Below are positions 3,910 to 55,211 of a DNA stretch of 64,000 bases, piece after piece. Below the pieces are notes generated by a model. The model was given only the letters and a program-made list of their open reading frames with translations. It searched no databases and was not told the origin of the DNA. A program made the position numbers and the translations under genes. This DNA is from a virus. The stretch lies in the IMG/VR virus record IMGVR_UViG_3300009502_000048, positions 1-64,000 of that record. One strand, given 5' to 3'. Each line of letters opens with the position of its first letter. Within the stretch, counting starts at the first letter, position 1.

Positions 3910-4817
3910 ACCATATCACCAATCCTTTTATTGATAAAATCATCAATCATTGTAAAGTCTTTATTTTTAATCCAATTATGATGATCAATAACCAATAGAT
4001 CTATATTTAATTCCTTACATTTTTCTTTTTTAATATTATCTTTATACTCCACATATTCTCCTTCATGCCAGTGGATAGCATTATATTCAATTGCCTTGTT
4101 TATTTCTGGTAATAATATATCAAGTTCTAAAAATCTACCACTTTTAGGATTAATAACGGTTGACCTATCACCTGATATTACTTCATAATTATATTTATCC
4201 TTTATGTAATTACAAATTTCGACCTCTGGTTTAGATTTTTGAATTGACAATGCACATATCGGACATCGTTGGCCTTGTTGAAAACTATTATATCTCATTG
4301 TAAATTGATGTTTTTTAGGGCACATTAATCGTATATCATTGAACGCCCCTATATATTCTGATGATAATAATGAATATCCCTCTTGTTCAATAAATTCTTT
4401 TATATCATCATATGGTGTTCTTCTTTTTTCTCTTGCACATGTTGGACATCTTTGACCTTGATGAAACGCCGAATACCTCATTTTAAATATATGTTCATTT
4501 GGACATTTAATTTTTAATTTATCTATCGCTTTATTGTATGTATCACTCAATAACACATATCCGGCATCCTCTATATATTTTTGTATAACATCATATGAAG
4601 TCGAATTACTATTGGCTATTTTAGTATTTTTACATTCTGGATGATTACATCTCGTTCCTTTCAAAAAATTATAAAACATCGGATAAAAAGTATGACCTTT
4701 TGGGCACATTACTATCAATGGCCTCACTGATGTTTTATATTCTGTACTCAATAATTTATAACCTTCAACACTGTTAATTGTATCCCCAACATGTTTATAA
4801 GTTAATTTTTTACACAT
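3903..4817 (-). CDS. Homing endonuclease, zinc-ribbon plus VSR-like nuclease
   Basis: A 304-residue protein with three N-terminal repeats of about 60 residues, each with a C-P-x-x-H...F...G-x-R-C-x-x-C zinc finger (CPKGH, CPNEH, CPKKH). A C-terminal nuclease domain follows (FLELDILLPE, then AIEYNAIHWH), typical of the VSR-like EDxHD homing endonucleases of the I-Bth0305I type. It is free-standing, wedged between the gp4-like gene and the 180-residue gene with minimal spacing. It probably cuts endonuclease-free relatives at this locus. Confidence 0.8.
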   Translation of the reverse strand: MCKKLTYKHVGDTINSVEGYKLLSTEYKTSVRPLIVMCPKGHTFYPMFYNFLKGTRCNHPECKNTKIANSNSTSYDVIQKYIEDAGYVLLSDTYNKAIDKLKIKCPNEHIFKMRYSAFHQGQRCPTCAREKRRTPYDDIKEFIEQEGYSLLSSEYIGAFNDIRLMCPKKHQFTMRYNSFQQGQRCPICALSIQKSKPEVEICNYIKDKYNYEVISGDRSTVINPKSGRFLELDILLPEINKAIEYNAIHWHEGEYVEYKDNIKKEKCKELNIDLLVIDHHNWIKNKDFTMIDDFINKRIGDMVC

Positions 4818-4820
4818 ATT

Positions 4821-5294
4821 TTACCCCTTTCCATCTTTGAATAAATCCTTTTCAGTTAAAATACGAAATGTTATACCATATTTCCTACAGAATATTTCTG
4901 CTGCTTTCCATTTGGCTATGTTGGTTTGCCATGTGCAAAATTCATACATAACCGTTTTATCTTTTTTATTGCCGTGTTGTGTTGGAACTACAGTTTCTTT
5001 ATATGGTTTTATTTCAATAATATAATTTTGGATTCTTCCGTTTGTATCCTTTACACTCATTGCAAAATCTGGAAAATATCTTCTGTTTTTCTTTTTGATT
5101 GGGTCATAGTATGGTATTTGTAATGATTCAGATGACCATTTTATTATGTTTGGATTTGAATCACACCACTTACAAAAATTGGTTTCCCAACTTGATCTAC
5201 ATACAGGCAATTCTTTACCAAAATATTTTTCTTCGTTTATCGGCGTATATCGGGCATGTTTAGTAGGATTGAATGTGCTTGAATGATATCCCAT
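4821..5294 (-). CDS. 4: Head-completion nuclease, T4 gp4/gp50-like
   Basis: 157 residues, the usual length of the family. Features shared with T4 gp4 are the N-terminal RSSWETNFCKWCDSNP segment, then IPYYDP, the nuclease core RRYFPDFAM followed by IIEIKPYKET, and the C-terminal WQTNIAKWKAA...GITFRILTE. The D and E-x-K residues fit a PD-(D/E)XK fold. In T4 this protein acts after packaging, before tail joining. The homing endonuclease gene follows after 3 bp. Confidence 0.85.
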   Translation of the reverse strand: MGYHSSTFNPTKHARYTPINEEKYFGKELPVCRSSWETNFCKWCDSNPNIIKWSSESLQIPYYDPIKKKNRRYFPDFAMSVKDTNGRIQNYIIEIKPYKETVVPTQHGNKKDKTVMYEFCTWQTNIAKWKAAEIFCRKYGITFRILTEKDLFKDGKG

Positions 5295-17167: not shown

Positions 17168-17377
17168 ATGGAAAAAATTTTAGGACAGCTGACGGAACAA
17201 GAACTGATACAGTATAATGCCGGTGATAAAAGTGTTACTGATAAGTATTTGAAAGAAGGAACAAAAGGAATGCCAAACGATTCTGTTATCAAAAAACAAA
17301 TTAGTGACACCGTTGATGGTTTTATTCAGGATACAATGGATTGGGCAATGAAATTCGACGAGAATTACATTATATGA
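17168..17377 (+). CDS. Small putative packaged protein with two cleavage-like sites
   Basis: Start at 17168; the ATG at 17156 lies ahead of the GGAGG that serves the second ATG. About 69 residues. L-T-E near residue 9 and K-Y-L-K-E near residue 30 both fit the protease rule, so the motif may be internal here. Expressed from the adjacent sigma-70 promoter and followed closely by the CCA-enzyme gene. Confidence 0.6.
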   Translation: MEKILGQLTEQELIQYNAGDKSVTDKYLKEGTKGMPNDSVIKKQISDTVDGFIQDTMDWAMKFDENYII

Positions 17378-17386
17378 AGGAAGAAA

Positions 17387-18220
17387 ATGACTAGACTAAA
17401 AAAATATATCGTTGAATTTATAGAAAACGCTGAACAATGGGAAAAAGTACAAAACAAATATCCCATGATCAAATCAGCGGTTAAGATTATTATTAATATA
17501 ACTAATATGGGATATAAAGCATATTTGGTGGGCGGAGCAATTCGTGATATAGTTTTGGGCGATGAACCACATGATGTTGATATTTGTGGAAACGCTTCAT
17601 TGGATGAAATACGAAAAATGTTTGATACATACGATTTGAGCGGAGAAGAATTTGGTATTATTGGCATTAAACTTGATGGACACACATATGAATATGCTCA
17701 ATTCAGATCAGACGGTAAATATGCTGATGGCCGTAAACCAGAAACTATAAAAATTGAAATGTCATTCAAAGAGGATGCTGCAAGACGAGATTTTAGCATT
17801 AACGCACTTGCCATTGATAAAGATGGCAATATTATCGACTATTTTGATGGTCAAAAGGACATAAAAAATAAAATAATCAGAGCCGTTGGTGATCCGGAAA
17901 AAAGATTTGAGGAAGATCACCTACGAATATTGAGAGCTGCCCGTTTTGCGGCAAAACTAGGATTTACTATTGACAAAGATACAAAAGCCGCTGCAAAAAA
18001 ACTGTCATCTCACATCACTAAATTATCCCCCGAAAGAATCAAAGATGAAATTATTAAGGCGGCATCACAAGAAGGTAGTAAGTTTGCTGATTATATTTTA
18101 CAACTAGATGAATTAGGAATATTAGAAATCATTTTACCGGAAATAACTAAACAAAAAGGTTATGAACATCATATAGAACATCATCCCGAAGGGGCATATG
18201 TTAGAAAAATATTAAAATAA
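17387..18220 (+). CDS. CCA-adding enzyme, nucleotidyltransferase half
   Basis: 277 residues. MTRLKKYIVEF at the start fits the targeting pattern (I-V-E). The nucleotidyltransferase core is clear: LVGGAIRDIVLG near residue 45, then the catalytic HDVDI, ARRDFSINALAID, and the RNA-binding helices RILRAARFAAKLGF. The conserved sequence stops abruptly after EHHPEG and ends in a short foreign tail (AYVRKILK). The HD half is encoded separately at 19132. Together they equal one class II tRNA nucleotidyltransferase. Confidence 0.8.
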   Translation: MTRLKKYIVEFIENAEQWEKVQNKYPMIKSAVKIIINITNMGYKAYLVGGAIRDIVLGDEPHDVDICGNASLDEIRKMFDTYDLSGEEFGIIGIKLDGHTYEYAQFRSDGKYADGRKPETIKIEMSFKEDAARRDFSINALAIDKDGNIIDYFDGQKDIKNKIIRAVGDPEKRFEEDHLRILRAARFAAKLGFTIDKDTKAAAKKLSSHITKLSPERIKDEIIKAASQEGSKFADYILQLDELGILEIILPEITKQKGYEHHIEHHPEGAYVRKILK

Positions 18221-18254
18221 TTTTTTACTTTCGTGTAATAATACTGTAAGATTT

Positions 18255-18262
18255 TATAAATA
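18255..18262 (+). promoter_or_regulatory. T4-type late promoter for the inserted endonuclease
   Basis: TATAAATA followed by GTATTAGGAGG and an ATG at 18282. The leader would be only about 15 bases. T4-family homing endonuclease genes often carry their own late promoter. Confidence 0.7.
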
Positions 18263-18281
18263 GTATTAGGAGGTTTATTAC

Positions 18282-19178
18282 ATGAAACAAGATGAAAATT
18301 TAAAAATATTTTTAATTGACCTAATAGATAAACAGAAATTTAGATTTTGTAGAACAATTAAAGAGAAATACATTGATATAGAAAGAGAAATAAAAGAAAA
18401 CACATCTTTTTTTAATAGTGAAGTATCTCTAGCAGAAAGAATATATTGCATATTAAATGATATTAAGAATATTACCGTATGTCCTATATGTGAGAAAAAG
18501 GTAGTATATAGGAATTATACACTTGGATACCGTAAGCATTGTTCATCCCGATGTTCACAATTGGATGAAAAAACAAAAGAAAAGTATAAAAAAACATATA
18601 ATGAAAAATATGGTGAAAATGTTGATTGTAACTTTAAATTGAAGGATTTTTACAAAAAACAAAAAGTTATATTAAAAGAACGATATGGGGTGGAAAATGT
18701 TTCACAAATTGAGAATGTTAAAAATACTAAAAGAATTACATTTCAAAAAAATCATGGTGATATACCACATCCATTATGGGGTAACACATGGTATGATTTT
18801 ATAACACCTTCTGGAATAAAATTTAAAATACAAGGATATGAAAGGTTTGCATTACCAATTCTTATAAATAAATATGGTGAATGTAATATCTTAATAGACT
18901 ACAAAAGTATAAAAAATAAAATAGGCGAGATAACATATGTTGAAAATGATAAAAAATACCGCTATTATCCAGATTTTTTTATCATTTCAGAAAATAAAAT
19001 AATAGAAGTAAAATCAAAATTCACATTGGAACAACATCTGGATAATTTAAAAAATAAAATGTGTGAATGTTTAAACCGTGGCTATAAATTTGAAATAATT
19101 ATATTTGATTATAAAGGAAATGATATTACACATGAACAGGACATTAAACGAATCCTTAAAAAAATTGGGGCCACCTGA
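18282..19178 (+). CDS. Homing endonuclease inserted in the CCA-enzyme gene
   Basis: 298 residues. Residues 66-90 hold a zinc ribbon (VCPICEKKV...HCSSRCSQ). The C-terminal nuclease core is RYYPDFFIISENKIIEVKSKF, a PD-(D/E)XK pattern seen in phage homing endonucleases. The 3' end runs past the start of the HD-domain gene in another frame. A strong AGGAGG ribosome site and own late promoter precede it. Confidence 0.8.
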   Translation: MKQDENLKIFLIDLIDKQKFRFCRTIKEKYIDIEREIKENTSFFNSEVSLAERIYCILNDIKNITVCPICEKKVVYRNYTLGYRKHCSSRCSQLDEKTKEKYKKTYNEKYGENVDCNFKLKDFYKKQKVILKERYGVENVSQIENVKNTKRITFQKNHGDIPHPLWGNTWYDFITPSGIKFKIQGYERFALPILINKYGECNILIDYKSIKNKIGEITYVENDKKYRYYPDFFIISENKIIEVKSKFTLEQHLDNLKNKMCECLNRGYKFEIIIFDYKGNDITHEQDIKRILKKIGAT

Positions 19179-19860
19179 ACCATATGATCCAAAAAACCCC
19201 GAACATAGTGATCCAACAAAATATGTATTATATCAAGGAACTGTATGGGATCATATGATTGCTGCGTTAAAAACAAATAAACTCGTTGATCCTATTGTAA
19301 ACCTTGCAATCCTCCTCCATGACTGTGCTAAGCCAGTCACAGCAACCATCAGAGATCATGGTGGCACGGCATACTTTGGTCATGCTGAAGAAGGAGTAAG
19401 GTTGGTAAATGATATTGCGGATAGATTGAAATTATCCAATGATGAACGAGAAAAATTGATATTTGCCGTTGGAAACCACATGAAATTTCATTTGATATTA
19501 GATATGAAACCTAGTAAGATTGCTAAGTTGGTATCTGATGACAATTGGGATGTATTGGTTGCTGTTGCTATGGCAGATAATTATTCAAGAGGAAAGGACT
19601 TCAAATATAATATTGATTTTGAACATATTGTTGATAGGGCAATTGAAGTAAAAGAAAAATGGGGCCAAAAAGCCATGAACAATGTTATAAAAGTCGTCAG
19701 CGGAGATCATATAATGGAAATAACTGGATTAAAACCATCAAAAATGGTCGGAAATATAATAAAAAGTGTTACTGATTTTGTAATAGATAACAATATCAAC
19801 CCATCAAACAAAACGGAAATGGATAATATAATTTTACAGGTTTTTAAAGAATTACAATAA
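19132..19860 (+). CDS. CCA-adding enzyme, HD-domain half
   Basis: Start chosen at ATG 19132 (AAAGGA upstream); ATG 19120 and TTG 19105 are alternatives. The conserved sequence resumes at GPPEPYDP, exactly where the N-terminal half stops. The HD phosphohydrolase-like domain shows LLHDCAKP (HD), YFGHAEEG and GNHMKFH. The first residues MNRTLNESLKK are not part of the family and happen to contain L-N-E. The two halves probably associate without splicing, as in genes-in-pieces NrdA of phage Aeh1. Confidence 0.75.
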   Translation: MNRTLNESLKKLGPPEPYDPKNPEHSDPTKYVLYQGTVWDHMIAALKTNKLVDPIVNLAILLHDCAKPVTATIRDHGGTAYFGHAEEGVRLVNDIADRLKLSNDEREKLIFAVGNHMKFHLILDMKPSKIAKLVSDDNWDVLVAVAMADNYSRGKDFKYNIDFEHIVDRAIEVKEKWGQKAMNNVIKVVSGDHIMEITGLKPSKMVGNIIKSVTDFVIDNNINPSNKTEMDNIILQVFKELQ

Positions 19861-20037
19861 ATGTATTTTTCTACACCAACTTTGAATTGTTGGTTCAGGT
19901 ATATTCATTTTTACAGATATTTTTTTATAGGAAATACCGTCTTTTCGTAATTCTAATTTTTGAATGGTTCTACCAATATAACATTTACCATTTACCACAT
20001 TAGTTGCTTTATATATTATTCCGAACGATTTACCCAT
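19852..20037 (-). pseudogene. Internally deleted GIY-YIG endonuclease remnant
   Basis: Start at 20037 behind GGAGTG. About 61 residues: a GIY-YIG start (GIIYKATNVVNGKCYIGRT) joined directly to the C-terminal helix-turn-helix (GISYKKISVKMNIPEPTIQSWC). The catalytic body and NUMOD3 repeats are missing. It may still bind DNA. The RNA-like element at 20050-20137 lies directly upstream. Confidence 0.7.
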
Positions 20038-20049
20038 GATATTCACTCC

Positions 20050-20137
20050 TATAAATAGATTGAGAAGGGACAGCAGCAATCACTCCGCTGTTTCCAGTAT
20101 GCTGAAACATCTGGATTACCTTCTATTACTATTTAGA
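20050..20137 (-). ncRNA. Three-way-junction RNA element, copy 1
   Basis: Read on the minus strand. An outer stem joins TCTAAATAG...GAAGG with CCTTC...CTATTTATA. Inside are hairpin P2 (TCCAG/CTGGA, bulged A, ATG/CAT) and hairpin P3 (ACAGC/GCTGT). It ends a few bases before the GGAGTG ribosome site of the endonuclease remnant. The same architecture recurs at 27781 and 54043 with compensatory changes. Function unknown. Confidence 0.7.
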
Positions 20138-20142
20138 GATTT

Positions 20143-21459
20143 TTATCTGCCAACCTCTGATAGATATTTGTATTTGACTTCATCAAATGTCATACCAATC
20201 AACCCATCATAAAACAGTATATTATTGTTGTTTTTGCCTTCTTTTACCAATTTTTCAATACGTTTACCAGCATATTTCTTTTTCCAGTAAGCAGATAAGG
20301 CATCAACTGAATTATCAAATTTTCTTTCACCTAAGTCTTCTGTTTTATTACATAAAAACTCATTGGTATTCTTATATAATTCACAAAAATACACACCACG
20401 ACTAAAATCATTATTGACTGTTTTGACGTTCAGTTCTTTATGTGCCATTGATAATAAACGAGGACGAACATGACTTGCTGGCCCGCCTTTTCTTGGTGCC
20501 ATCAATTCAGCATATTTGACAGGCATATTTTCTTTGATATATTTTTTTATTTCTACATAAACACTTTCTTCTGGTTCAACAGGTATCTTGCCATCAGATG
20601 GTTCACATGATTTATACATTTTTAGTCCGGTATATTGGCTTTTACCACCCTCTTTTACACTTGTATACAAGGATGTTGTTGTAACGCCTGCCAATTTCTC
20701 AGCATATTTGTTATTCCAAAAATCTTCAATAACATTGGATGTTGATAACATAGCAATCAGTTTTCCGCCGGTATAATTATATCCGAATGGTTGTGTTGGA
20801 ACAATAGAACTGGCCATACATAGATAATTCAATTTATGGTCATCCATTTTATTTTTCATTGACCAGCCAATATACTTATCTCGGCCACCAATAGAAATGA
20901 AATCAGATCCTATTGATATAACACCCAAATACATTTGTGTTTTTTTATCTCTTACAAGAAATTTGCCAAATCTACCGGGCGATTGTGACCATATAGCCGT
21001 TGAGATCATTCTACGCAATATTGTCCATGTAGTTGATAGTTCTTTATTTGTAGCATTAACAACCAACACTTCTGGTTCTAAGTCTATGTAATCATTAGGT
21101 TTTTTAGGTATCCAGATATTATTTTTGATGTCAAGAATTTTTTGTTTATCGCTTATAGACCATTCAATACCATTCAACTCTTGCCATTTACGGTATAGAG
21201 TATAAGTTTGAACGCCCATTGAAGAAACGAATTTGATATTATCTTGAAACAGTTTTTTCAATGTTTTTTTATCCATTGTATCAGATGATTGTTGTTGTTC
21301 GATTACTGTTGGTGGTGCCATAGGGAGAACATCTGGAAATGTTTCAATATTTAATTCTTTAGGTTTATTTGGAACGGTTTTTATAATAGGTAATTCTATA
21401 ATTTCCTTTTTTTTTGTGGTCGGCGTATTACCGAAAAACAAATCTAATCCTTTTGCCAT
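20143..21459 (-). CDS. DUF4338-like phage protein
   Basis: 438 residues. The N-terminal 60 residues are Pro/Lys rich. The core contains LGVISIGSDFISIGGRDKYIGW and then LNYLCMASSIVPTQPFGY, which recalls DUF4338 (LGFIGFGSA...RD.WIGW...L..V.NN..FLI.P). DUF4338 includes the Druantia protein DruA. The assignment is by motif memory. Its stop lies just upstream of RNA element copy 1. Confidence 0.55.
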   Translation of the reverse strand: MAKGLDLFFGNTPTTKKKEIIELPIIKTVPNKPKELNIETFPDVLPMAPPTVIEQQQSSDTMDKKTLKKLFQDNIKFVSSMGVQTYTLYRKWQELNGIEWSISDKQKILDIKNNIWIPKKPNDYIDLEPEVLVVNATNKELSTTWTILRRMISTAIWSQSPGRFGKFLVRDKKTQMYLGVISIGSDFISIGGRDKYIGWSMKNKMDDHKLNYLCMASSIVPTQPFGYNYTGGKLIAMLSTSNVIEDFWNNKYAEKLAGVTTTSLYTSVKEGGKSQYTGLKMYKSCEPSDGKIPVEPEESVYVEIKKYIKENMPVKYAELMAPRKGGPASHVRPRLLSMAHKELNVKTVNNDFSRGVYFCELYKNTNEFLCNKTEDLGERKFDNSVDALSAYWKKKYAGKRIEKLVKEGKNNNNILFYDGLIGMTFDEVKYKYLSEVGR

Positions 21460-26400: not shown

Positions 26401-27140
26401 GCTGATGTTTTCAAAATATGACCATTTGATAATTTTATTTCATTCACTTTTTTGAAAGATCGTGGATAAACAATATTAACCATATCACCACTTGGTAGTA
26501 TATCACCTTTTGATATATCAGATAATAATACAATTTCTTTTTCTTTATATATCGTATTAGTAATAGGAATACAATTCCAACCAGTTATAACATCAGGGGC
26601 ATATTTGTGCATAAATCCAAAGAATTGTTGTAATAATACTTCTTCATTCTTACAATGGATATAGGTCAGCCAAGGTTCTTTTTTATATTTACCATTATAT
26701 TCTTTGATACCAAAGGTTGTTGTTTTATTTTCCAACATATTATATACTGAAATAAGAACAACAGGGGCCAACGCATCCTCAGCTTTAGGAAAAACATCTT
26801 GAAAATCGACTTCAATATCTATTGAGTAAATCTTCAATTTAGGATTTTCTATTTCATCATCAGGAATCTCATGATATCGTTCAGCCAGATATTGAATTTC
26901 TGGTCTTAGATTATTTTCTTTGCAATTAAGGTCAGATTTTTGGTAAATAAAGTAATCATTATATGTATTAAAAGTCTTTTTGGATACTGTATTACCTTCT
27001 ATTGATTTAATAGTGCCGTTTTCATCATCTATGAACACATATGGTATCCATTTTAATTCATTATACTTATCTTTCCCATTTATTTGGCTCCATAAATGTA
27101 TGTTGTTAGTTCTACTATTATAATAAACATTCTTGAACAT
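23478..27140 (-). CDS. 43: Family B DNA polymerase with intein
   Basis: Start at 27140 (MFKNVYY), with AAAGGA nine bases upstream. Exo I is IYSIDIEVDF; Exo II is GWN-CISFDIQYL once the intein is removed; motif A is DLDIISSYP, motif B is LKIILNSTYG, and motif C is YMDTDSLF. Without the intein the protein is about 878 residues, near T4 gp43 (898). The intein splits the Exo II motif, so unspliced protein should lack both proofreading and correct folding. The 5' end overlaps the upstream GIY-YIG gene. Confidence 0.92.
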   Translation of the reverse strand: MFKNVYYNSRTNNIHLWSQINGKDKYNELKWIPYVFIDDENGTIKSIEGNTVSKKTFNTYNDYFIYQKSDLNCKENNLRPEIQYLAERYHEIPDDEIENPKLKIYSIDIEVDFQDVFPKAEDALAPVVLISVYNMLENKTTTFGIKEYNGKYKKEPWLTYIHCKNEEVLLQQFFGFMHKYAPDVITGWNCIPITNTIYKEKEIVLLSDISKGDILPSGDMVNIVYPRSFKKVNEIKLSNGHILKTSADHVIPIKYIDNNKYTKLSENRKNKQILNEGDMKVSDIPFLDKSCFVQVPFDLNKNDNIDIDNNLLYMAGLIYTDGSMRDKTRQCEGYRIYQSNTELLEQLPYVTTSICGDRKKGYSRHIKHSIIKDVYDYIYNEAGEKTLNLTLLSRLSKEQFYIFLSGVLDGDGCKSDVGMGLCDYTSDGIDKLYDLCLWNGIFVTRSKNTMRFIEYDETKLYLNHPYRWSNMRYNTNTRTSSQKASQIRFKKIDECYYIKIDDIKETDETVEMGDIKTSSNYFITSGVRVHNCISFDIQYLINRTLRIFGEDSKVANNLSPISNVRTWINKDGEFNADIIGVTLLDYLDVYKWYSPAKLERYTLDYVSNHELEKGKVDYSAYKDLRQLYNENWDLYVEYNIIDAYRVGQIEGKLGYIKLIQTLSLLCKAPMKFYHTQTALIEGILITYFRRNGLCAPTFYGGVQEGFPAAFVKEPLTGLHKWVIDLDIISSYPTAIVTLNMSNETYYGRIIGFTEDQMISHMKNRDLPEFDMLKDTGKVRFSGRKLEIFQEALKKKFLCVAPCGSVFSTTVPGVIATVEKSMFYKRVEVKKKMIKMKKSLPELKGKDFERTKEKIARYQGLQNALKIILNSTYGILAVPFSRYFNTNIAEAIVSCGRQTIKASERYVNQLYNKPSKALLDVLNNMERDITKKPSEDVDLILYMDTDSLFINVGRLFDLYGVEWKNKTDEYIMNHIHNISVVTEDYVNDKAYREMQRTVYNSTETDFRIKFKREIIAKSILFVKKKKYSAWIVDEERNPVDKIKTTGLEIVRSDTPEVVRPVLKDIMSMILKGSSDNELSTMISKCKKELQGMPPEAISTNIGIHDTKKYIGPDGKSVKGTPMQIKGVANYRALLKILGLEGKYEDIMEDAKVKVLYVKKNKFGFDAMAFNRWPKEFDSVLQVDYTRQIEKTFLNKCEMLLKVLGKTDLLYVKAKESLKLFF
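25548..26573 (-). other. Intein with LAGLIDADG endonuclease in DNA polymerase
   Basis: 342 residues between N192 and the Cys of CISFD. It begins Cys (CIPITNTIYKEKE), has block B TSADHVIPI, two LAGLIDADG blocks (LLYMAGLIYTDGSM and IFLSGVLDGDGCKSD), and ends VRVHN before the +1 Cys. All standard splicing residues are present, so it should be active. The site in Exo II differs from the common PolB intein sites in motifs A and C. Confidence 0.9.
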
Positions 27141-27768
27141 TATCCACATTCCTTTTTATTTTACTTTTTATATATTTTGACTTATTGTTATTACCTAACA
27201 TTGCATCACTCATACGTTTTTTAGTTTCTTCTGATTTTTTAATCCCCTTTCGGGCCTCACTTATTTTCTTTCTATGTTCTAAAGTATTTTTTCTACCCAT
27301 TGCACTTTCACTCATTTTTCTTTTAGACTCATCTGTATGTTGTTTTCCCGAAAAACTTGGTGTTCTTTTTTTGGCTCTTTCACTCATCTTTTTTCTTGTT
27401 TCATCAGAAGGATTTGATGATCCTTCACCACCTTCTGTAAAATTACATAAAGGGCCTTTATGTAAATCAACCCTGCCTATAGTTTGTATAATATGTTTCT
27501 CAAGATTGAATGATATTTCCTCTGATATTTGATCCATAATTTTTATTATTATAGGATCACAACCAGTTTCTAACTGTATCTTCTTAATTTTATTTAAAAT
27601 ATGATTATTACTATGATAACCGTCTTTTATATGATAATATAACCTATTATTACTACCCTTACCAACATAGAATGGTTCATAATCAAACGAATATTCATCA
27701 TAGATATAGGTGCCTGGCTTACGCGGATCAAGATATACATAAACATAAAATATTGGATTTACTTTCAT
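27118..27768 (-). CDS. GIY-YIG homing endonuclease with NUMOD3 repeats
   Basis: Start at 27768 (MKVNPIFYVYVYLDP), behind GAGGTG. The GIY-YIG domain is residues 4-95 (FYVYVYLDPRKPG...EPFYVGKGSNNR). The rest is four NUMOD3 DNA-binding repeats (DETRKKMSERAK, DESKRKMSESAMG, LEHRKKISEARKG, EETKKRMSDAMLG). The 3' end overlaps the DNA polymerase start. RNA element copy 2 sits immediately upstream. Confidence 0.88.
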   Translation of the reverse strand: MKVNPIFYVYVYLDPRKPGTYIYDEYSFDYEPFYVGKGSNNRLYYHIKDGYHSNNHILNKIKKIQLETGCDPIIIKIMDQISEEISFNLEKHIIQTIGRVDLHKGPLCNFTEGGEGSSNPSDETRKKMSERAKKRTPSFSGKQHTDESKRKMSESAMGRKNTLEHRKKISEARKGIKKSEETKKRMSDAMLGNNNKSKYIKSKIKRNVDNVQECLL

Positions 27769-27780
27769 TTGGTTCACCTC

Positions 27781-27867
27781 ATAAATAGATGTGGAAGGGA
27801 CAGCAGCAAACCTCACGCTGTTGATTGTGTGTTTCAGCACCAATCTTACCTTCTACATGTATTTAGA
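27781..27867 (-). ncRNA. Three-way-junction RNA element, copy 2
   Basis: Minus strand. Outer stem TCTAAATAC...GAAGG with CCTTC...CTATTTAT; P2 is GATTG/CAATC with bulged A and GTG/CAC; P3 is ACAGC/GCTGT with a GTGAGG loop. It abuts GAGGTG, the ribosome site of the GIY-YIG gene at 27768. Confidence 0.72.
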
Positions 27868-30298: not shown

Positions 30299-30597
30299 TT
30301 ATTCATCTCCTGTTCAATATATTTTTTAATTGTTTCGCCATGACATCGTTTCGGAGCACACCAACAAAACAAATTTAATTGATGATATGTTTTATATATT
30401 TCAATCAATCGTTGTAATTCATCTTTCAACATCAAAATATTTTCATCAAACCATTTTTCATACATATCACAAACCAAATCACGTTCACTTTCATTGTATA
30501 AAATGTATGGGTTGCCCAGTATTGATTTAGTTCTACATATTTTAACATCCCAAGGTTCTTTGGGCTTTTCTTTTGAAAGATTTTTGATTTTTATCAT
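30295..30597 (-). CDS. DUF4326 protein
   Basis: 100 residues. ICRTKSILGNPYIL, then a helical part with the YEKWFDENI motif, and the C-terminal LFCWCAPKRCHGETI, which match DUF4326. The Cys/His set could bind metal. Short overlaps with both neighbours (4 bp) indicate one transcript. Confidence 0.75.
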   Translation of the reverse strand: MIKIKNLSKEKPKEPWDVKICRTKSILGNPYILYNESERDLVCDMYEKWFDENILMLKDELQRLIEIYKTYHQLNLFCWCAPKRCHGETIKKYIEQEMNK

Positions 30598-31394
30598 TTT
30601 TTACACCAACCTTGTATTGTTCCATCAGGAATATTCATTATTTCTGATATCTTTTTAAAAACCATGCCCTGTTTTCGTAAAGAAACAGATTGTAATATTA
30701 TTTCATCCGAATATTTTCGATGAGCTTTTCCCATTTTTTCCCTTGTTTCTTTTGATGGCCTTATACCAGTATGGCTTTCGCCTATTTTTTGTCTGGTTTT
30801 TTCTGAATGAATTCTTCCTTTACCAGCACTACTTATTTTTTCCCTTGTTTCTTTTGAAAATTTTCTGTTTTTTGCTCGTTCACGCATTTTTTCTCTTGTT
30901 TCTTCTTTTATATCGTGTTTTTTTCGCATTTTTTCTTTTGTTTCTTCTGTAAATATTTGAAATTTTCTTTTTTCTTTTATTTTGTATTTTGTTTCTTCTG
31001 ATACATAATGTCCTTTAAGTTTTTCACTAATCTTCTTTTTTGTTTCATTTGAACATATGGCGCCAGGGCATCCGCCACCAGCATCATTTTTATTAAACAG
31101 AGGCCCTGTTTCTTTGTTTAATCTGCCTATTGTTTTTACCATCTTTCGTTCTAGTGCTAGTGATACATTTTCAAACAAATCTTTTTTATAAAAAATAATA
31201 TTTGGGGTTTTTATTTCTTGTACCATAAATAGAAAATCTTTATTCGTGCCGTGCCCTTTTAAATGAACATACGCCCTGTCACCATTACCTTTACCCACAT
31301 AAAATGGTTCATATTCAAATTCATATTCGCCATAAACATAGTTGCCTGGTTTACGGGGATCAAGATATACATAAACATAAAAATTATCTGACAT
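30594..31394 (-). CDS. GIY-YIG homing endonuclease with NUMOD3 repeats
   Basis: Start at 31394 (MSDNFYVYVYLDP). GIY-YIG domain at residues 4-95 (EPFYVGKGNGDRAYVH), about six NUMOD3 repeats (EETKEKMRKKH, KETREKISSAGKG), and a C-terminal helix-turn-helix (GMVFKKISEIMNIPDGTIQGWC). It lacks the RNA element found before the related genes but has its own late promoter. Confidence 0.87.
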   Translation of the reverse strand: MSDNFYVYVYLDPRKPGNYVYGEYEFEYEPFYVGKGNGDRAYVHLKGHGTNKDFLFMVQEIKTPNIIFYKKDLFENVSLALERKMVKTIGRLNKETGPLFNKNDAGGGCPGAICSNETKKKISEKLKGHYVSEETKYKIKEKRKFQIFTEETKEKMRKKHDIKEETREKMRERAKNRKFSKETREKISSAGKGRIHSEKTRQKIGESHTGIRPSKETREKMGKAHRKYSDEIILQSVSLRKQGMVFKKISEIMNIPDGTIQGWCKK

Positions 31395-31419
31395 TATACA
31401 CTCCCTCAATTCTAGTATT

Positions 31420-36228: not shown

Positions 36229-36304
36229 TGGTGCCATAGGTGGGAATAGAACCCACGTTGACGGCGTTTTAGAGGCGCCCGCTTAACCACTCAGCTACTA
36301 CGGC
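36229..36304 (-). tRNA. Suppressor tRNA, anticodon CUA (reads UAG)
   Basis: Cloverleaf on the minus strand: acceptor GCCGTAG/CTATGGC (one G-U), D arm GCT/AGC with the loop AGTGGTTA, anticodon stem GGCG/CGCC, loop CTCTAAA giving anticodon CTA, variable loop of six, T arm GTGGG/CCCAC, and an encoded CCA end. The base 31-39 pair is C-A. The charging amino acid cannot be decided from sequence. Amber stops are used normally by several genes in this window (5303, 8284, 9037, 13867). Confidence 0.82.
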
Positions 36305-52976: not shown

Positions 52977-53183
52977 CTATTTCGTTGCCTGCTTATATAA
53001 TCTAATAATCGAAACTCCTACACATAATAGTAACCAACCAATCATGAACATAGGCGATGTTCCAAACCAACTATCCATCTTCAATCCAACAAAGGTGAAT
53101 AACATTGTGCTTAATACCATTATAAACGACCAAGCACTCAACGAATATACTTTCTGCATTATGTTTCTTTGTGTGTTATTCAT
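52977..53183 (-). CDS. AtpZ/AtpI-like membrane protein
   Basis: Start at 53183 (MNNTQRNIMQKVYSL). 68 residues with two membrane segments: SAWSFIMVLSTMLFTFVGLKMDSWFGTSP and MFMIGWLLLCVGVSIIRLY. The layout 'G..lD..fGt.P.f...g...g...g..r' is that of AtpZ/AtpI, small accessory proteins of F-type ATP synthase thought to move Mg2+ or Ca2+ or aid assembly. Unusual in a phage. The start is overlapped by the GIY-YIG gene. Confidence 0.6.
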   Translation of the reverse strand: MNNTQRNIMQKVYSLSAWSFIMVLSTMLFTFVGLKMDSWFGTSPMFMIGWLLLCVGVSIIRLYKQATK

Positions 53184-54030
53184 AATATCCTCCGATATTT
53201 TTATGTACTTCACACATTTTCTTTTTTGTTTCTTCGTTATGTTTTTTACCATACATACCATTTTTACACCCTCTACAGGATTCACTAATCTTTCTTTTTG
53301 TTTCTTCTGTATGTGTTCTTCCTTTCATAATCTCACTTTGATGTTTTCTTTGTTCTTCTGATATTATCTTTCCTTTATGTCTATCACTCATTTTCTTTTT
53401 TGATTCGGTTGTATGTTTACGACCCTTACCAGACTTACTCATTTTCTGCTTTGTTTCTTCTGATACTTCTATACCTTTATGTGACTCACTCATTTTCTGC
53501 TTTGTTTCTTCTGAAGCAAAATGTTTTCCTTTATTGGATTCGCTTATTTTCTGTCGTGATTTTTCTGATAGTATCCGTTCTTTTGCGTATATACTAGCCG
53601 CTTGTTTTATCCTTAGTTTTATCTCATCCGTTCTATTTTTATACGCCTCTCTCATTTTTTGTTTTGCATCATCTGTATGACATATACCAGCCATTCCTCC
53701 ACTAATTGTGTCAACAAAATTACATAGAGGGCCTGTATTATTGTTTTGTCTACCAACAGCTCGGTTTATTTTTCCTTCTAAAACAAATGCATCATATTCA
53801 TTTAAATGTTCTGTATGAAAAATAATTAAAGGCGTGCCTATCTCTTTTATTTTATTACTGAAATCTTTATTATAACATCTTTTCAAATGACTATGCGCCC
53901 GTCCATTACACCCTTTACCTACATAGAATGGTTCATAACCAAACTCATATTCACCATACACATAGTTACCAGGCTTACGTGGATCAAGATATACATAGAC
54001 ATAAAAAATATTTTCTTCTGGGTTACACAT
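53176..54030 (-). CDS. GIY-YIG homing endonuclease with NUMOD3 repeats
   Basis: 284 residues. GIY-YIG domain at 8-100 (IFYVYVYLDPRKPG, EPFYVGKGCNGRAHSH), followed by about nine NUMOD3 repeats (EETKQKMSESHKG, EETKRKISESCRG). RNA element copy 3 lies directly upstream of its GAGGT ribosome site. Its 3' end overlaps the AtpZ-like start. Confidence 0.88.
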   Translation of the reverse strand: MCNPEENIFYVYVYLDPRKPGNYVYGEYEFGYEPFYVGKGCNGRAHSHLKRCYNKDFSNKIKEIGTPLIIFHTEHLNEYDAFVLEGKINRAVGRQNNNTGPLCNFVDTISGGMAGICHTDDAKQKMREAYKNRTDEIKLRIKQAASIYAKERILSEKSRQKISESNKGKHFASEETKQKMSESHKGIEVSEETKQKMSKSGKGRKHTTESKKKMSDRHKGKIISEEQRKHQSEIMKGRTHTEETKRKISESCRGCKNGMYGKKHNEETKKKMCEVHKNIGGYYE

Positions 54031-54680: not shown

Positions 54681-55211
54681 ATGAATGAAAATATATATTA
54701 TGTCTATGTTTTTTTAGACCAAATGAAAGAAGGTATTTATAATTATGGTGGTGAATATATGTTCAACTATGAACCGTTTTATGTTGGTAAAGGAAAAAAT
54801 GGTCGATATTCATCACATCTAAAAGGCAAATCACACAATAAAGAATTAAGAGCGAGAATAGATTATATAAAAGAAACAACAAAAACAGAACCAACTATTA
54901 TGAAACTCTATTATCATTTGAGTAATTCTGATGCCATAATTGAAGAACGGCGAGCGATCAATATTATTGGAACCAAAACCAGTAAACGAATCAAAGGGCC
55001 ATTAGTCAATAAAGATTTTTCTAATGTATATGACAATTCTATACCTAATATAGACAAAGAAACTTACATTTTGGATCACCCTTATATTTCATCACAACAA
55101 GTATTTATTGGTATATACAATTTTCTTGCTTTCTGTAAACGAAAACATTTGAATAGTCAATCGTTAATTGACGGTAAAATAATTGATGGATGGTCTTTAA
55201 CTATTGTATAA
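54681..55211 (+). CDS. GIY-YIG protein without NUMOD3 repeats
   Basis: 176 residues. GIY-YIG domain: IYYVYVFLDQMKEGIYNYGG, EPFYVGKGKNGRYSSHLKG. The C-terminal third has no NUMOD repeats but a distinct helical part. Unlike the others it is on the plus strand with an early promoter and a terminator of its own, so it is a stand-alone unit. Confidence 0.82.
   Translation: MNENIYYVYVFLDQMKEGIYNYGGEYMFNYEPFYVGKGKNGRYSSHLKGKSHNKELRARIDYIKETTKTEPTIMKLYYHLSNSDAIIEERRAINIIGTKTSKRIKGPLVNKDFSNVYDNSIPNIDKETYILDHPYISSQQVFIGIYNFLAFCKRKHLNSQSLIDGKIIDGWSLTIV

Follow-up and report, generated by a model that had tools for sequence, protein, structure and literature searches.

Introduction

The closest precedent for the gene described here is the nrdA-A / mobE / nrdA-B cluster of Aeromonas phage Aeh1, in which an enzyme gene is split by a homing endonuclease gene without an intron, and for which two polypeptides are described as making up the enzyme; it concerns one gene, one site and an HNH endonuclease. 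This system was the subject of work by Friedrich in 2007 and by Crona in 2011; the latter reportedly ascribes the role of interaction domains to extra tails on both Aeh1 NrdA pieces, and this single case is said to be the source of the split-and-dock proposal. Split inteins are likewise mobile elements that leave a part on each protein piece.

Related arrangements have been reported elsewhere. In T4-like phages, gene 43 and gene 60/39 are described as divided, with homing endonuclease genes or spacers adjoining the pieces, and the parts of split gp43 are reported to co-purify with activity (PMC2988022). The cox2 gene of wasp mitochondria is presented as a case of insertional fission, in which two complementary pieces of the gene flank a nuclease gene (PMC5374615). 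Genes split by homing endonucleases, with products that reassemble, are accordingly described as a known kind (PMC2988022, PMC3653736).

Here we describe a CCA-adding enzyme gene in a 64,000-nucleotide stretch of viral DNA (positions 1 to 64,000 of the 64,375-base IMG/VR record IMGVR_UViG_3300009502_000048; hereafter the window). It is in pieces like the split gene 43 and gene 60/39, which encode other enzymes, and it differs from wasp cox2, a mitochondrial gene split in one lineage for which the abstract describes no recurrent module.

Results

A CCA-adding enzyme encoded in two pieces

In the window, the CCA-adding enzyme is encoded by two separate reading frames around a PD-(D/E)XK endonuclease gene (Table 1), as the first-pass annotation of the sequence had claimed and as open reading frames together with Pfam and PHROG matches bear out. 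Piece 1 matched the PolyA_pol head domain (3e-34), PolyA_pol_RNAbd (2e-13) and phrog_2244 tRNA nucleotidyltransferase (3e-66), and piece 2, which is 50–59% identical to its best-matching relatives, matched HD (1.7e-4, Pfam) and again phrog_2244 (1e-8). The domain order of a class II CCA-adding enzyme, with the nucleotidyltransferase head and neck followed by the HD-containing body, is found across the two pieces. The gene between them has a nuclease fold of a homing family, with matches to DUF7487 (PF24308, 3.5e-25) and phrog_3339 homing endonuclease (3.8e-6) and a PD...EVK motif read by eye; its TnsA-like match (0.0014) lies below that family's cut-off, and no confirmed relative was found in viral_contigs. 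As also noted previously, this gene runs into the second half, with its stop codon 47 nt inside piece 2, and both the likely ribosome-binding site and the ATG of piece 2 lie inside it.

Table 1 Features of the window discussed in the text
Feature	Position	Strand	Remarks
CCA-adding enzyme, piece 1 (nucleotidyltransferase head and neck)	17387..18220	+	277 aa; Pfam and PHROG matches
Tail module AYVRKILK (final 8 codons of piece 1)	18194..18217	+	intact relatives without tail; V[RQ][KR]I motif at both sites
Whole insert (tail, endonuclease gene, head), 1043 nt	18194..19236	+	boundaries set by intact relatives
Endonuclease gene, PD-(D/E)XK (DUF7487)	18282..19178	+	298 aa; PF24308 match
AAAGGA, likely ribosome-binding site of piece 2	19113..19118	+	13 nt before the ATG; putative, from sequence
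CCA-adding enzyme, piece 2 (HD half)	19132..19860	+	ATG at 19132, 242 aa; HD and PHROG matches
Head module LKKLGPPEPYDPKNPEHSDPTKYVLYQ	19156..19236	+	in split copies only
ORF of 75 aa, directly after piece 2	19852..20079	-	start like that of a GIY-YIG endonuclease, by eye
DruA-like protein	20143..21459	-	PF14236, 2.4e-16
tRNA gene	36229..36304	-	anticodon CTA
Four ORFs with related N-termini	27118..27843, 30594..31409, 53176..54030 (-), 54681..55211 (+)		FYVYVYLDPRKPGxYxYGEY, by eye
ORF starts with capsid-targeting-like motif	5584, 6165, 6842, 7519 (-), 7604, 8309, 14179, 17387 (+), 40025, 40792, 42335, 51245 (-)		

Several other features of the window were recorded alongside. The 75-aa ORF after piece 2 begins in a manner (IIYKATN..GKCYIGRT) that may mark it as a GIY-YIG relic, a DruA-like protein adjoins the locus, and the four ORFs with related N-termini are possibly a repeated family of GIY-YIG type. 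The single tRNA gene of the window is of amber suppressor type, is called tRNA-Pyl by ARAGORN and apparently has its CCA encoded; TAG is rare among stops and not clearly reassigned.

Conserved modules at the edges of the insert

A comparison with uninterrupted relatives, which the annotation had proposed, confirmed the split. Forty loci were typed, L004 and L005 both representing the window; among the other 38, 31 read through uninterrupted, five are split (L006, L007, L011, L012 and L013), L036 is truncated and L039 has no HD match. The uninterrupted loci mostly read HHPETRGxGGTVxSH or HHPEGDVWxH, and the split copies carry an extra tail after HPE(G/T) and an extra head before GxVxxH, both absent from intact copies. 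Because intact relatives pass almost directly from HHPE(T/G) to GxVxxH, the CCA-enzyme sequence in the window starts again at GTVWDH (19237), and each edge is an added module. The junctions as first drawn therefore had to be moved: piece 1 extends beyond EHHPEG with AYVRKILK before its stop codon, and the HD half does not resume at PPEPYDP, PPEPYDPKNPEHSDPTKYVLYQ being no CCA-enzyme sequence. The earlier figure of about 85 bases ahead of the endonuclease agrees with the 88 nt from the true boundary at 18194 to its ATG, and the first stop lies 61 nt before that ATG.

In split copies, the first piece ends with the tail motif V[RQ][KR]I and the start region of the second carries the head motif KLGPxxxYDPNNPEHxDPTKY; across split loci, the tail has 7–14 residues and the N-terminal extension of the second piece, head included, 26–49 residues. 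Identity at codon positions 1, 2 and 3 of the head was 0.827, 0.841 and 0.575 (9 of 11 heads, all but L056 and L148), and this variation at the wobble position fits selection on the protein.

In an alignment of the heads of nine lineages, the residues G, P, H, D, K and Y do not vary, which would be in keeping with very short self-acting modules that join the chains covalently, through protein trans-splicing or an isopeptide-type bond, rather than by docking alone. We consider such joining very unlikely, since the modules have no match in Pfam or PHROG and only chance matches in PDB, and the structural model presented below has strands only. The joined tail–head peptide showed no intein Hint splicing domain when compared with Pfam and PDB, and the modules differ from split inteins both in this and in their length, which to our knowledge is much shorter than that of any intein.

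Homing endonuclease genes are often housed in introns, and an unrecognised ribozyme might join the halves in RNA. The first-pass annotation had found no group I intron core, and this was upheld: Rfam at E≤10 on positions 17300–20100 returned no intron and no group I or group II ribozyme core, and Rfam at gathering over the whole window returned no intron, upon which we rejected a spliced intron at the window locus. Furthermore, a start codon precedes every second piece, the tail and head are in frame and constrained as protein, and the inserts are as small as 149 and 167 nt, so that we give splicing hardly any credence.

Recurrence in eleven lineages at two sites

Pattern and alignment scans, followed by reading of the loci, placed the tail–head pair in 11 lineages including the window, at two insertion sites of the one gene: site A, just before the first motif of the HD domain, and site B, inside the nucleotidyltransferase domain between a QFR-type stretch and GRKP. 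At site A, the two pieces enclose the PD-(D/E)XK gene in the window, a GIY-YIG gene in L006/L007 and in L056 (whose first piece is known from its end only), an unrelated proline-rich ORF in L051, a 129-nt gap in L042 and a 41-nt gap in L053; no gene lies between the pieces in L011–L013, where they overlap by 4 nt. At site B, they enclose a GIY-YIG gene in L044, L058 and L065 and a zinc-finger protein in L148; the homing-family nuclease folds outside the window are GIY-YIG and, in L148, possibly HNH, the match being weak (0.039). The inserts span 149 to 1069 nt, and the length of 6 of the 11 is not a multiple of 3. As side observations, L011 has a GIY-YIG gene directly upstream of the split enzyme and not inside it (4508–5104), and the 117-kb record of L044 (G009) contains five GIY-YIG matches, one immediately following the gp23 gene.

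A model derived from the seven site-A heads matched all four site-B heads (E 6.9e-11 to 2.6e-7), a recovery biased by the use of head patterns to find the site-B loci. None of the 25 intact enzymes was among its matches, and in the 950 ORFs from the viral loci retrieved, a set containing the split CCA genes, the strongest ORF other than the enzyme scored 0.096. The tail motif, which played no part in any search, was found in the last 12 residues of 11 of 644 distinct ORFs; all are first pieces of split CCA genes, copies of one lineage included, and all four site-B first pieces carry it. A head scan of phage records gave one match per split record (10/10 split versus 0/13 intact), in every case in the CCA-adding enzyme. 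With the other genes of the same phages and genome_contigs scanned, the tail and head are known so far only from this enzyme: of 57 pattern stretches from bacteria in genome_contigs, none proved to be a head that opens a split gene, and tblastn of the 27-aa head consensus against 50,697 named phage records (E≤10) found none.

This recurrence qualifies the likeness to Aeh1 NrdA drawn in the first-pass annotation. The layout holds, in that a homing endonuclease gene is flanked by the two pieces and no intron is detected; the edges, however, are conserved tail and head modules, present in 11 lineages at two sites with several endonuclease types or none, and by eye they are unlike the Aeh1 junction peptides. 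The layout, overlapping genes included, would equally match plain genes in pieces, where a free-standing endonuclease inserted, the edges are chance by-products and the enzyme adapted. We regard that account as unlikely, because the recurrence of one tail–head pair at two sites and with different endonucleases is not what chance by-products would give.

An occupied and an empty site in close relatives

Presence and absence of the insert at one site was found in close relatives, with L007 split and L028 and L029 intact. Across some 12 kb, several blocks of DNA are about 87–90% identical between L007 and L028; within the gene, 712/815 positions match before the insert and 556/591 after it. The identity reaches right to the junction, where 840 nt of L007 follow, consisting of the tail, the GIY-YIG gene, the start of the second piece and the head, all absent from L028. 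The first 75 nt or so downstream of the insert are diverged, and beyond them the sequences are again nearly identical; this tract would fit co-conversion, and a search for its donor singled out none, the best scores being those of the intact L009 and the split L011. For site B, an empty-site partner was sought for L058, and the relative search returned L058 alone.

A tree of the enzyme body (35 rows, 25 intact and 10 split; the later-found L148 and six duplicate or partial intact loci are not among them) needed six changes between split and intact and grouped L007 with L028 at 100/94; the places of several split rows are unsure because their branches are long. A split gained repeatedly is more probable than a single ancient event, although the tree by itself cannot separate gains from losses. 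We infer that the element is actively homing.

Selection and predicted structure

Between the split L007 and the intact L028, dN/dS was 0.118 for piece 1 and 0.309 for piece 2, compared with 0.066 and 0.117 for the corresponding halves of the intact pair L028/L029. The faster evolution of L007 piece 2 is what would be seen if the insertion had inactivated the enzyme and the pieces were decaying. This is highly improbable, given that dN/dS is below 1 in both L007 halves, with some relaxation or co-conversion effect, that reading frames are open in 11 lineages, and that domains are complete in the split pieces scanned with Pfam, which carry enzyme domains only (every lineage but L056 was covered, with the first piece alone for L044, L058 and L065).

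Because both pieces of L042 share one frame, its read-through chain could be folded as a single model. AlphaFold gave a mean pLDDT of 85 and a pTM of 0.77, with the translated gap (residues 252–294) predicted as a disordered linker (pLDDT <50) and the tail (243–249) and head (295–302, 316–319) predicted as strands; pLDDT averaged 80 for residues 241–250, 63 for 291–300, 86 for 301–310 and 84 for 311–320. Foldseek matched the model to whole CCA-adding enzymes (6qy6, TM 0.79; 1miv, 0.77; by target length). The L042 halves are thus predicted in the normal enzyme arrangement with tail and head ordered, and, judging from the strand assignments rather than from coordinates, the two strands probably pair with each other. 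The site-B read-through fold of L044 (about 250 non-enzyme residues, 5 rows), in contrast, reached a pLDDT of 56 and did not order the tail, so that assembly of the Aeh1 type through added tails is suggested by the L042 fold and not by that of L044.

Capsid-targeting-like starts

Many ORFs in the window start with a T4-like capsid-targeting motif, MRLKxFINE (Table 1). A pattern for such starts, drawn after viewing the ORF list, fitted 10 of the 101 first-ATG ORFs with 80 aa or more (mean 0.045 and maximum 1 in 200 shuffles) and 1 of 375 internal ATGs. The T4 targeting peptide is reported to have 10 residues, with gp21 cleaving after L/I-x-E (PMC9026906). Of 15 records, 5 contain a gp21-type protease, and of 16 records, 5 contain gp23, many of the records being fragments; a search of the window for gp23 gave no match. 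Piece 1 in the window has a capsid-targeting-like start, as do most intact relatives, and piece 2 has its own in L007 (MKYREYLSE) and L011 (MRLMNFINE). As read from sequence, these own starts would support separate translation of the pieces and hint at a possible packaging of both enzyme halves in the virion.

Discussion

Taken together, we favour, at a probability of roughly 0.7, an unspliced homing element that splits the CCA-adding enzyme gene, whose tail and head most likely dock the two chains so that the phage pays little. The element would break the gene and terminate piece 1 with a short tail strand, and translation of piece 2 would restart at the element's own start codon, adding the head-bearing extension. 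Tail and head would then pair as beta strands and clip the two polypeptides into the arrangement of the intact enzyme; most likely because they hold them there, the insertion would cost the phage little. We infer that the assembled pieces are active. Once the tail–head pair works, the endonuclease would be free to be swapped or lost, and L011, L042 and L053 suggest that it can be replaced or lost while tail and head stay.

We more tentatively propose, at somewhat less than even odds, a distinct class of mobile element that is neither intron nor intein: a homing element with a transferable two-part docking tag, inserting at more than one site in a conserved enzyme that is reassembled from two chains, and with an endonuclease that is interchangeable and dispensable. 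In a literature search judged from titles and the starts of abstracts, we recognised no description of a split CCA-adding enzyme, nor of a conserved, transferable tail–head pair at two sites, in 11 lineages and with different endonucleases, which to us appears to be new.

Splicing is the means by which introns and inteins avoid harm to their host; split and dock would be a third recurrent solution, for which the 11 lineages seen here share a single module pair. How selfish genes turn harmless thereby becomes testable, and the tag pair could be a very small natural tool to rejoin split proteins.
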